A DNA stretch of 64,000 nucleotides from an uncultured Pelagibacteraceae bacterium (GTDB lineage: Bacteria; Pseudomonadota; Alphaproteobacteria; Pelagibacterales; Pelagibacteraceae): contig CACHJN010000002.1 in assembly GCA_902580115.1 (NCBI GenBank), forward strand, positions 1-64,000, written 5' to 3'. Positions within the stretch are counted from its first letter, which is position 1; each line of letters opens with the position of its first letter. Shown piece by piece: positions 6,838 through 42,046 of this stretch. Made by a program: the position numbers and the translations under genes. The notes under the pieces are model-generated. The model was not told where the DNA came from. It did not search any database and was given only the letters and a program-made list of their open reading frames with translations.

Positions 6838-7503
6838 TTACGCAGCAGCTTGAATTTTATGCTTAGAGGACATGCCGCTTAAGAAATTCCAAAGATATCT
6901 AGCTGTCAGCATAGAAGCTTTTTCTGCTTTGACTTTTTCTTCTTCTGTCAAAGCATCTAAAAGTTTTTCACACTCTTTTCTATGAATTACATCAGCAGCT
7001 TTATGAGCTTCAAAAAACTCAAGACCTTCCTTAGATGTAACTCCATAAAAGTTTTTTAATCCTCTTATTTTCGTTTCAGCTATTTCAGGAATTTGTCTTT
7101 CGTAAGTGTATAAAGATGCTAAACCTTCTGCATATGATTTTCTCGCTTGATGGAAAAAGTTTTCAATCATATCGTTAGTAAACCACTCTCTTTTAACATC
7201 TTCGATTTTATCTTTGTCAGCACCCATTGCCAATGCAAAGTTTTTCCAAAGCTTAGGATGATCTGCATTTGGATTTTCCTCGTCTTGGAGATTTTCTAAA
7301 AGAATTTTTCTTTTTTCAATATCTTCACAAATCGAGTGTGTAGCGCTGATATATCTCGGAAACGCTTTCACGTGTTGGTAATATTGTTCTGCGTAATCTT
7401 TAATAATTTCTCTTGTTAATTTTCCTTCATTCCAAGACTTGTAGAATGGATGATTTAATAAATGGTACTGGTCTAATTTTTTGTTAAGCTCTTGTGAAAA
7501 CAT
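6838..7503 (-). CDS. CADD/PqqC-like heme-oxygenase-fold protein
   Basis: A 221-residue all-helical protein of the PqqC/TenA/CADD superfamily. Candidate metal ligands typical of the CADD group are visible: E and H in LQDEENPNADHP (about 72-83), E in YTYERQIPE (about 133-141), and H/D/H in EAHKAADVIHRKE (about 164-176). Tyr in HPFYKSW (about residue 21) could match the tyrosine consumed by CADD. In Chlamydia and Nitrosomonas, CADD proteins make p-aminobenzoate from their own tyrosine, so a folate role is plausible. Its 9 bp spacing to the nucleotidyltransferase places it at the head of the apr operon. PqqC itself is less likely because no other pqq gene is present. Confidence 0.75.
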   Translation of the reverse strand: MFSQELNKKLDQYHLLNHPFYKSWNEGKLTREIIKDYAEQYYQHVKAFPRYISATHSICEDIEKRKILLENLQDEENPNADHPKLWKNFALAMGADKDKIEDVKREWFTNDMIENFFHQARKSYAEGLASLYTYERQIPEIAETKIRGLKNFYGVTSKEGLEFFEAHKAADVIHRKECEKLLDALTEEEKVKAEKASMLTARYLWNFLSGMSSKHKIQAAA

Positions 7504-7583
7504 ATATCTCCTTGGTTAATTAACATTATTAAAACTGTTTCAACTTAGGAAATAGAATAATGATTTATCCACATTAAGTATAC

Positions 7584-7620
7584 AAAAAAAGGTGCGATGT
7601 TCTCGTTTTGATTCACCTTT
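7584..7620 (-). terminator. Putative terminator after MFS gene
   Basis: On the reverse strand AAAGGTG (7620-7614) can pair with CACCTTT (7594-7588), and the right arm runs into seven T residues. The loop is long (19 nt). It lies between the MFS stop (7649) and the next operon start (7503), where a terminator is expected. Confidence 0.5.
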
Positions 7621-7648
7621 GATTCCAATTTAGACTCAAAATACAACC

Positions 7649-10117: not shown

Positions 10118-10201
10118 ATGGGTTACCCAAAAAAACACAGAGGTAGACGTAAAATAGGATCCAAAAAAAGAAGAGCAAGAAAAAGAAATAAACGTAAATA
10201 A
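10118..10201 (+). CDS. 27-residue highly basic peptide
   Basis: The peptide starts MGYPKKHRGRRKIGSKKRR and ends KRNKRK. More than half of its residues are Lys or Arg and none is acidic. It has a near-perfect Shine-Dalgarno and its own start and stop. The composition is like the smallest ribosomal proteins (bTHX, or the bS22/mS38 COX24-type tail), and an rRNA-binding role is the best guess, but I cannot match it to a named family. The following membrane gene starts 11 bp later, so they probably share a transcript. Confidence 0.75.
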   Translation: MGYPKKHRGRRKIGSKKRRARKRNKRK

Positions 10202-10212
10202 ACTAAATTAAT

Positions 10213-10917
10213 ATGTCTGAAACAACTCAAATCCGTAAACTGAGTTTATGGATATTTTTTTTGCCATTAATTGCAATTAATACCTGTCTATTTATTTCAG
10301 TTAATTATCATCTTTTTGAAAACACAATTTTTCAAGTTAATCAAATTGGTAGATCTGGGTTTACAATTCCCTATCTTGATGGCAGTGTTTCTATTAGTAG
10401 AGCGTCAAGAACTTTTCCGCAATATTTAATTTTTAAACCCTCTATGATAATCACTGGACTTCTTTTATTTTATTATTGGAATTTCAACAATAATTTAATT
10501 TGTAAATTGAGAAACACACAGAATTTTAAATATAAATTTCGCTTGTTTGGTATTTTATCAGCTATATTTTTAATTATTCACTCAATCTTTTTGGGAGTTA
10601 AATTTGATATCCAGCTTTACAAATTATTTAGAAGAGTTGTTTTGCTATTATTTATTATATTTGAATTAATAGCTCAAGGAATACTAGTTTATTACTTGTA
10701 TAATATTAAAAATAGAATTTCAGAAATCACAAATAAAAAAGTTTTAATAATTAAAATATGTTTGGTTTCAATTTTAGTGATAGTAGCTTTCGCAAGTCTG
10801 CCGATATTAGTTACAAAGGGAAACACACATTTTAAACATGCTCTTGAATGGAACTATTTCGTAGGTGTGATAACTTTTTACTTGCTGACTTTTTTCTTTT
10901 GGAAAAGAACCACATAA
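10213..10917 (+). CDS. Multi-pass membrane protein, possibly Frag1/DRAM-like
   Basis: A 234-residue protein with about six hydrophobic helices (around residues 10-30, 75-90, 110-130, 140-165, 175-200 and 210-230). The first extracytoplasmic loop contains SISRASRTFPQYLIF and the last one HFKHALEWNYFVG, a layout reminiscent of the Frag1/DRAM/Sfk1 family. That match is weak. No enzymatic motif is evident. It is downstream of the basic peptide gene, and its stop codon overlaps the base of the hairpin that ends the ncRNA candidate on the other strand. Confidence 0.7.
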   Translation: MSETTQIRKLSLWIFFLPLIAINTCLFISVNYHLFENTIFQVNQIGRSGFTIPYLDGSVSISRASRTFPQYLIFKPSMIITGLLLFYYWNFNNNLICKLRNTQNFKYKFRLFGILSAIFLIIHSIFLGVKFDIQLYKLFRRVVLLLFIIFELIAQGILVYYLYNIKNRISEITNKKVLIIKICLVSILVIVAFASLPILVTKGNTHFKHALEWNYFVGVITFYLLTFFFWKRTT

Positions 10918-11092
10918 ATTTCTAGGCTTTCGCCCAGAAATTTAGTAGTTTTGGTTCGTCGTTGTAGGCGCTACCGCCGAACCCACCCGATCAACCATTT
11001 TAGCGCTACTCAGTTGACCTTTCTGCCCTTTAAGCTTGAACCTCTCGGTTTTTCCTTAATTGGCCAGTTAAGAGTTGCCTCTTAATTAATCT
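10916..11092 (-). ncRNA. Candidate structured non-coding RNA
   Basis: This non-coding stretch is less A+T-rich than its surroundings and folds well as reverse-strand RNA. Paired elements: TTAAGAG/CTCTTAA (11085-11068) with a GCAA loop; AACC/GGTT (11050-11039) with a GAGA loop; a six-pair GTCAAC/GTTGAT stem (about 11018 with 10990); GGTTCG/CGAACC (10983-10953) with an inner GCG/CGC hairpin; and a final 11-pair hairpin (10943-10916) with a GAAA loop. Three GNRA loops all on one strand fix the orientation. A TATGAT-like -10 at 11104-11099 would start the RNA near 11092. I cannot assign it to 6S, tmRNA, SRP or RNase P. Confidence 0.6.
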
Positions 11093-11154
11093 CATTAAAT
11101 CATATTAAAAAAATTAATGTATCACTTATTAGTTGTTTGATTTTTACTTGTGGA

Positions 11155-12285
11155 TTAGGTGGATAAATTTTTATTAAAAGTCTTGTCTATCCAACCACCT
11201 CCAAGCACCTTATCCCCAGTCCTATCATTTAAATAGAATACACATGCTTGACCCGGGGAAATACCGCTTTCTCCATCTAAAATATTTACTTCTGCTTTGT
11301 TTGAATTAAATTTAACCTTCGCTCTAAGTAATTTTCCAGTAGATCTAACTTTAATTTTTATTTCATTTTGAAAATCATCAATATTTCCCAAAATATTCAA
11401 TTCTCTCAAAATTATTCTATTAATTTTTAAAGCCTCTTTAGGACCAACAATTATTGTGTTGTTATCATTGTTTATTTTAACCACATAAAGAGGATCCTTT
11501 TCAGCAATTTTGATACCTCTTCTTTGTCCTATAGTGTAATTTATTATGCCATCATGTTGACCAATCACATTGCCTTTAATATCAATTATTTTTCCCGATT
11601 TAAAAGACTCAGGTCTAAATTTTTTTATGACTGAACTATAATCTCCATTAGGGACGAAGCAGATATCTTGACTATCAGGCTTTTCGGATACATTGAGATT
11701 AAGTTTTTTAGCAATGTTTCTAGTTTGTGTTTTTTCAATATCTCCTAAAGGAAATCTCAAAAAATCAAGTTGTTCTTGTGTTGTGCTAAATAAAAAATAA
11801 CTTTGATCTCTTGAAAAATCTTTAGCCCTATACATGCTACTTTTTCCGTTTGTTTGTATTCTTTTAATATAATGTCCTGTGACCAAAACATCAGCTTTAA
11901 GATTTTTTGAATATTGAAATAAGTCTCTAAATTTTACAGTTTGATTACACTGAACACAAGGTATGGGTGTTTCTCCAGAAGAGTAACTATCTATAAAATT
12001 GTCTATAACCTCTTTTTTAAATTTTTTTTGATAATATAAGATTTCGTGATTTATATTTAATTGTTCGGAAACTCGTTTTGCATCTAGAATATCTTGACCA
12101 GCACAACATTGTCTTCCTTCTTTAGATGACTTTGCATCATCGTATAATTTTAAAGTAATTCCAGTTACATCATATCCTTCCTCTTTCATCAAACCTGCTG
12201 CCACTGAAGAGTCTACTCCACCAGACATTGCTATAACAACTTTGGTTTTTTTTTTGGGTTTATTTATTCCTAGTGAATTGATCAT
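11155..12285 (-). CDS. mnmA: tRNA-uridine 2-sulfurtransferase MnmA
   Basis: A 376-residue enzyme that installs the 2-thio group on U34 of Lys/Glu/Gln tRNAs. The PP-loop [13 protein letters not shown] is at residues 19-31. The two catalytic cysteines are in [13 protein letters not shown] (about 108-120) and [13 protein letters not shown] (about 205-217), and GHYIKR and YTIGQRRG motifs are present. Full length for the family. The ncRNA candidate starts about 60 bp downstream on the same strand. Confidence 0.95.
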
Positions 12286-41861: not shown

Positions 41862-42020
41862 CTTTTTACCCCATCTGTTTTGAAACCTGAGAGATTTACT
41901 CCTTCGGTGAGGCAAAGCCTGCTTTCCAGAGTTATTACGGCAACGGTCCTTTTGCCTGAGAGTTTCCGGGGTGGTTGCTCCTTCGGCGCTACATTAAAGT
42001 AGACTCTCCCGTTACAAGTG
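41862..42020 (-). promoter_or_regulatory. Tandem glycine riboswitch controlling gcvT
   Basis: Two adjacent glycine aptamers precede gcvT. Aptamer 1 (42013-41942) is bounded by AACGG/CCGTT and has CGCCGAAGGAGCAA and GGAAACTCTCAGGC. Aptamer 2 (about 41936-41868) has CTCTGGAAAGC, CACCGAAGGAGTAAA and CTCTCAGG. The conserved CGAAGGAG and CTCTCAGG cores are unmistakable. The 5' flank of aptamer 2 (41940-41928) can pair over 13 positions with the gcvT ribosome site and start codon (41861-41849), which gives a simple glycine-on translational switch. Confidence 0.93.
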
Positions 42021-42046
42021 GACTTTCGTTCATTCTTCAAAAAAAG

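Follow-up and report, generated by a model that had tools for sequence, protein, structure and literature searches.

The window, a stretch of 64,000 nucleotides, contains on its reverse strand a gene for IMES-2, a catalogued orphan RNA of SAR11 ocean bacteria. This copy is an ordinary type I member of about 142 nucleotides followed by a terminator tail, and the interest rests at the level of the family, where two features go beyond the printed Rfam model: a predicted kissing helix formed by the loops of hairpins 3 and 4, and a 3′ half that is exchangeable. Comparison of relatives supports the fold and the putative kissing pairs; it also shows that the 3′ module has been exchanged between genera and that the RNA is not tied to any one neighbouring gene. 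As a whole, the observations are probably best explained by a one-copy, separately transcribed and trans-acting RNA composed of two parts, with a kissing and exchangeable 3′ domain. The main rivals are a base-pairing regulatory sRNA and the use of the gene as an attachment site by mobile elements; cis regulation and the replacement of 6S RNA are unlikely.

Identification of the IMES-2 gene

Scanning the 64-kb window with cmscan yielded a match to the Rfam family RF02035 (IMES-2) at positions 10951-11092 of the reverse strand, with a score of 154.9 bits (E 1.4e-40; gathering threshold 54.7), which spans positions 1-141 of the 141 in the model and is thus full length. A structured non-coding RNA on this strand had been predicted in a sequence-only reading, which had also proposed the Rfam search; the prediction is borne out by this match, by folding relative to shuffled sequences and by compensatory changes in relatives. 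Besides the full-length score, the window copy shares with the family the four hairpins, supported by compensatory changes, and the marine SAR11 origin. Elsewhere in the 64 kb, a single further match exceeds the gathering threshold, to a glycine riboswitch aptamer (41934-42021, reverse strand).

In line with the earlier statement that the usual 6S, tmRNA, SRP and RNase P landmarks are absent, cmscan gives only IMES-2 at the locus. A 6S RNA (RF00013) match for the region was not obtained in the window even at E <= 10, covariance matches to tmRNA, SRP RNA and RNase P RNA were absent from the 64-kb window, and the SAR11_0636 sRNA (RF01827) did not match at 10951-11092, so that among the families tested only IMES-2 scores there. 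A full-text literature search for IMES-2 had as its sole find the giant squid genome paper (PMC6962438), which names it in a note on contamination.

The features of the locus, in window coordinates, are as follows.

11155..12285, reverse strand: mnmA, upstream neighbour on the same strand; open reading frame, Pfam tRNA_Me_trans E 3.3e-75
11120..11135, reverse strand: promoter-like element CAACTAATAAGTGATA with AGTGAT at the -35 position; conserved in relatives
11099..11104, reverse strand: -10-like TATGAT, 16 nt downstream of AGTGATA; read from the sequence
10951..11092, reverse strand: IMES-2 RNA (RF02035); cmscan 154.9 bits
11068..11085, reverse strand: hairpin 1 with GNRA loop (GCAA); 7 pairs, 99.7-100% paired, 4 with double changes
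11023..11067, reverse strand: hairpin 2 with GAAA/CAAG internal loop and GAGA cap; 15 pairs, at least 11 with double changes
10989..11019, reverse strand: hairpin 3, start of the exchangeable module; 8 pairs, 8 of 8 with double changes
11002..11007, reverse strand: predicted kissing segment of loop 3, AGCGCU, complementary to 10968-10972
10953..10983, reverse strand: hairpin 4, end of the exchangeable module; 9 paired columns, 7 with double changes
10968..10972, reverse strand: predicted kissing segment of loop 4, AGCGC, complementary to the loop 3 segment
10915..10944, reverse strand: terminator hairpin after IMES-2; terminator-like site, MFE z -6.0
10213..10917, forward strand: convergent 234-aa open reading frame; ORF call, no Pfam match

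Fold of the RNA

The minus strand of segment 10916-11092 folds with a minimum free energy of -57 kcal/mol as compared with -39.6 (sd 3.5) for shuffles (z -5.0), and none of 200 shuffles was as good. The plus strand of the same 177-nt segment also folds low (z -4.0), as expected for hairpins. The minus strand is assigned on the basis of the covariance model and covariation, not of folding energy alone, and by this route the earlier claim of a clear reverse-strand assignment is upheld.

Over 32 diverse relatives, the 44 pairs of the structure are standard in 92.7% of cases, and 32 of them changed on both sides; the compensatory changes on which the sequence-only reading had staked its prediction are hence present. 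In the same relatives, none of 500 shuffles reached the observed level of pairing, and slid versions were 34-40% paired. The loop of hairpin 1 conforms to GNRA in nearly all relatives (GCAA, GCGA, GUGA, GUAA). In hairpin 2, the internal loop GAAA/CAAG is kept in 69 of 99 copies, and the GAGA is simply a cap, since the most divergent copies have UUCG or other loops in its place. All 98 copies that possess the linker between hairpins 2 and 3 have it as AAA. One of the nine paired columns of hairpin 4 is a conserved G-A / A-G mismatch: at columns 125/145 of alignment A2, the non-canonical G-A (79 sequences) and A-G (10 sequences) covary, and a structured mismatch is likely.

These results modify the picture drawn from the letters alone. 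Of three proposed GNRA-capped hairpins, the GCAA hairpin stands, the GAGA loop is a replaceable cap and the GAAA loop belongs to the terminator hairpin. The proposed closing 11-pair hairpin is likewise this terminator hairpin, which lies outside the Rfam model and whose sequence varies from relative to relative. The GGTTCG/CGAACC stem is real and corresponds to hairpin 4; its supposed inner hairpin gives way to a loop 4 that would chiefly pair with loop 3.

Covariation between loops 3 and 4

Loops 3 and 4 contain the motifs AGNNCU and AGNNC, respectively, which covary. Six dinucleotide combinations were observed at the two variable positions (loop 3/loop 4: CG/CG, UA/UA, CA/UG, UG/CA, AA/UU and UU/AA), found as the loop pairs AGCGCU/AGCGC, AGUACU/AGUAC, AGCACU/AGUGC, AGUGCU/AGCAC, AGAACU/AGUUC and AGUUCU/AGAAC, and all six are Watson-Crick. 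When all column pairs are ranked by APC-corrected mutual information, the two kissing pairs take ranks 6 and 7, amid nested stem pairs. Among 99 sequences, 97.5% of the cells of the 5-bp helix are paired, compared with 90.8% in shuffles and 4-64% in slid versions, and none of 500 shuffles was as high. The number of pair types alone showed no excess over shuffles in these 99 sequences; the support therefore derives from the percentage paired, the double-change cells and the covariation score. A tree from which the loop columns were left out requires at least five changes of the kiss state, with an equal count on both sides. In about 15 copies, loop 3 carries AU in place of AG, so that one of the five pairs is weakened.

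Taken together, comparison of the sequences argues that loops 3 and 4 of IMES-2 form a kissing helix, which would probably lock the arms of hairpins 3 and 4 side by side. The common loop forms are self-complementary, and the loop-loop pairing could take place between two molecules instead of within one. In purine riboswitches, the parallel P2 and P3 arms are connected by Watson-Crick pairs between their loops. By analogy, IMES-2 would likewise have a pair of hairpins, similar in length, that are connected through their loops; however, it is not located in front of a gene, and the three-way junction and the ligand pocket are features of the riboswitch.

In the printed consensus of RF02035, both kissing loops are unpaired and nearly fixed as GCGC, and the consensus therefore describes type I copies. 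As the consensus line shows no pseudoknots even for RNase P, an earlier annotation of the kiss is possible. The type II copies and the forms found in genera g7 and g9 reach much lower scores with this model (62-137 bits).

Exchange of the 3′ half

The 3′ half of IMES-2 exists in two frames that are about 45% identical, designated type I (GGCGGUAGCGCnUAcAACGAC) and type II (GAAGGUAGUACUUCAACAGC and near relatives). Copies L038 (type II) and L211 (type I), both from genus g1, share 99% identity over the 5′ half and 45% over the 3′ half, and for L038 and L046, the latter from genus g3, the respective values are 86% and 88%. Sliding identity delimits a swapped block from about position 80 to about position 200, with native flanks on either side. 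The frame changes 9 times on the tree of the 5′ half and once on that of the 3′ half; on the trees of the flanking proteins it changes 7 times (MnmA) and 6 times (ORF234). With the type II group defined from the RNA and not from the protein trees, AU tests reject a single type II clade for MnmA (p 2e-32) as well as for ORF234 (p 1.4e-5). An exact match to the type II pattern is found in 6 of the 247 genomes; these six belong to four genera, and each has a single match, located at the IMES-2 locus. In copy L042, a type II module is followed by a type I-like terminator, the swapped part stopping before the terminator, and L041 shows the reverse combination, indicating that module and tail recombine separately.

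By comparison, the two-hairpin 3′ half has been exchanged as a block between genera several times, with the remainder of the RNA and its gene neighbours unmoved. Because loops 3 and 4 must match, the 3′ half would be replaceable only as a unit. Such a small RNA domain, cleanly replaced between native flanking genes, represents unusual evidence for very fine-grained gene exchange between genera, and the kiss and the block exchange provide concrete handles on an orphan RNA.

The swaps might instead be traces of the integration of mobile elements for which the RNA gene serves as attachment site, and not of selection on the module. Integrases often use the 3′ ends of RNA genes, and in genus g4 a tyrosine recombinase gene adjoins IMES-2. 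However, an exchange at an attachment site should reach the end of the gene, whereas the swap ends before the terminator in L042 and the reverse holds in L041. Moreover, no element lies between the flanking genes, which are native, and the recombinase is a resident gene that is also present in genome G017, which has no IMES-2. We therefore regard this explanation as quite improbable. As to selection on the module, the interchangeable 3′ modules might be rare alternative alleles on a conserved 5′ platform, kept by selection and passed between SAR11 genera, that decide an interaction specific to the strain, such as one with a phage or partner molecule, a speculation to which we assign a low probability.

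Genomic context and transcription signals

In the window, IMES-2 is located 62 nt behind mnmA on the same strand, and mnmA and the 234-aa open reading frame lie beside it in genera g1, g2, g3, g6, g8 and others. In genus g4, it is found between a divergent tyrosine recombinase gene upstream and an ogt-like gene, 57 nt before the latter in L012, and in g7 and g9 the neighbours are selO, rmuC-like, nuclease-like and SRAP-like genes (names read from translations). Thus, the location next to mnmA given by the sequence-only reading holds for the window and several genera and is not general, as other SAR11 genera have other neighbours. Correspondingly, a constant position relative to one regulated gene was not observed; neighbours and orientation vary. 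A 27-codon open reading frame at 10118-10201 of the forward strand of the window encodes a very basic peptide (MGYPKKHRGRRKIGSKKRRARKRNKRK) without a Pfam match and is preceded by a strong Shine-Dalgarno-like AAGGAGG.

Upstream of the RNA, relatives share a promoter-like block with the consensus CAAC-N5-AGTGATA (variants CACGnnnnAGTGAT) and a TATGAT-like -10 behind it, which takes the form TATGAT or TnTGATA. In 59 of 99 copies, the strict pattern detects a related element at a distance of 27-30 nt upstream of the RNA start, and AGTGAT itself can be seen in nearly all others. The strict pattern occurs a single time in the genome of the window (G000), at IMES-2, and is absent from 1.28 Mb of G017. 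When the element was employed as a regulon marker, no further credible sites were found, and a TTGACA-type promoter was not detected. The element together with the TATGAT would act as a promoter and permit independent transcription. At the other end of the gene, the terminator hairpin overlaps the stop codon of the convergent 234-aa open reading frame, and relatives show a hairpin with a long U-run at this position.

The short distances behind mnmA in the window and before the ogt-like gene in L012 could point to a cis-acting element, such as a 3′-UTR of mnmA or a leader of the ogt-like gene in g4. However, the downstream gene is convergent in the window, the neighbours differ among genera, the upstream recombinase gene of g4 is divergent, and the conserved promoter-like element and the terminator persist across the different contexts, which makes cis action extremely unlikely. 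Because of its own promoter-like element and its several gene contexts, IMES-2 is probably a free-standing, trans-acting RNA and not a cis-element of mnmA.

Distribution of IMES-2

IMES-2 was detected in 168 of 247 genomes of the family, in 58 of the 102 near-complete ones and in 12 of 14 genera, and a broader covariance model gave the same tally as RF02035. Nearly all of the 168 positive genomes contain one match (E <= 0.001). In a class-wide draw of 289 genomes, matches were confined to SAR11 members, and scanning named genomes with a pattern gave matches in Pelagibacteraceae or Pelagibacterales, which were confirmed with the model, save one chance match in a cyanobacterial metagenome-assembled genome (L205), which by the covariance model is not IMES-2. 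IMES-2 is hence a one-copy gene that is restricted to SAR11 in these searches. In viral contigs, the exact hairpin-1 pattern was unmatched, and phage and plasmid records likewise gave no match.

Genera g5 and g12 showed no copy in any genome sampled, and for the complete genome G017 of genus g4 the absence is demonstrated directly, as the syntenic gap between the recombinase and ogt genes holds two other genes. A divergent copy hidden in the negatives was not found: the broader model R1 gave chance-level scores on G017 (1.28 Mb + 40 kb) and on the mnmA regions of G003, G005 and G012. The absences in the family counts are in part assembly gaps. Within genus g1, real loss was rejected as the cause of the patchiness: among 12 negatives examined, mnmA is entirely missing from 10, and the remaining two have a contig that breaks off within mnmA. 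A truncated IMES-2 was observed at L192:263-381, where loop 3 runs straight into an apparent recombinase coding sequence; either a genuine loss or a chimera from the amplification of a single-cell genome could explain this.

Since IMES-2 is absent from whole lineages (g5, g12 and the complete G017), its role is dispensable and not essential. SAR11 bacteria are among the most abundant in the ocean and have streamlined genomes with few regulators. As IMES-2 is kept in most genera of this group, it is likely useful.

Possible mode of action

The 5′ half with hairpins 1 and 2 would constitute a conserved platform that holds a protein partner, and the 3′ half, with its kissing loops and two hairpins that are close in length (8 and 9 paired positions), would supply shape, stability or variable recognition. 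That IMES-2 works in this way as a protein-bound RNA, regulatory or structural, is a tentative proposal that we rate at somewhat below an even chance. The short purine-rich unpaired stretches, such as the AAA linker, look more like sites of protein or tertiary contacts than like an antisense seed.

An alternative is a regulatory sRNA, in which loops 3 and 4 or a single-stranded 5′ end would pair with mRNAs and a swap of the module would change the targets. The intergenic site with its own promoter-like element and terminator would fit such an RNA, and a variable, exchanged 3′ module would suit target recognition. However, nearly the entire RNA is paired without a long conserved single-stranded stretch, and the variable loop residues preserve mutual pairing and are not free as in a target-driven seed; we consider an sRNA of this type unlikely.

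The sequence-only reading had suggested a trans-acting RNA such as 6S. With the varying contexts, trans action is probable, whereas the likeness to 6S RNA is limited to the size range and the trans-acting intergenic gene; the architecture differs and covariance-model similarity is lacking. We did not detect 6S RNA with RF00013 in 18 SAR11 genomes, including G000, G003, G017 and G043, and it has either been lost or is very divergent in SAR11. This absence, obtained by a search that was positive in Caulobacter and four other controls, could suggest that IMES-2 binds RNA polymerase as a functional replacement. However, a very divergent 6S RNA could escape the model, IMES-2 consists of four hairpins with a putative kissing pair and has no 6S-like long bulged hairpin, and the complete genomes negative for IMES-2 are likewise without detectable 6S RNA, which argues against a one-for-one replacement. 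This role is consequently very improbable. The protein-bound RNA proposed above remains our preferred reading.

Relation to SAR11_0636 RNA

SAR11_0636 sRNA (RF01827) is another free-standing structured RNA reported from SAR11 (PMC2704228); IMES-2 is not listed in the HTCC1062 survey (PMC2704228). It co-occurs with IMES-2 in most of the same genomes and is unrelated in sequence and fold (three-way junction, 90 positions). Considered as a counterpart that replaces IMES-2 in negative genomes, it was dismissed, as the two are not mutually exclusive and occur together. A SAR11_0636-like element is present at 7562-7648 of the reverse strand of the window, scoring 49.3 bits with RF01827 (E 1.1e-7), below the 67-bit cut-off. 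It lies 3.3 kb from IMES-2, between an MFS transporter gene and a gene of the TENA/THI-4/PqqC family (6838-7503, reverse strand). Likewise, many g1 genomes contain a low-scoring RF01827 copy at a distance of a few kb from IMES-2, and a second copy is present in many.
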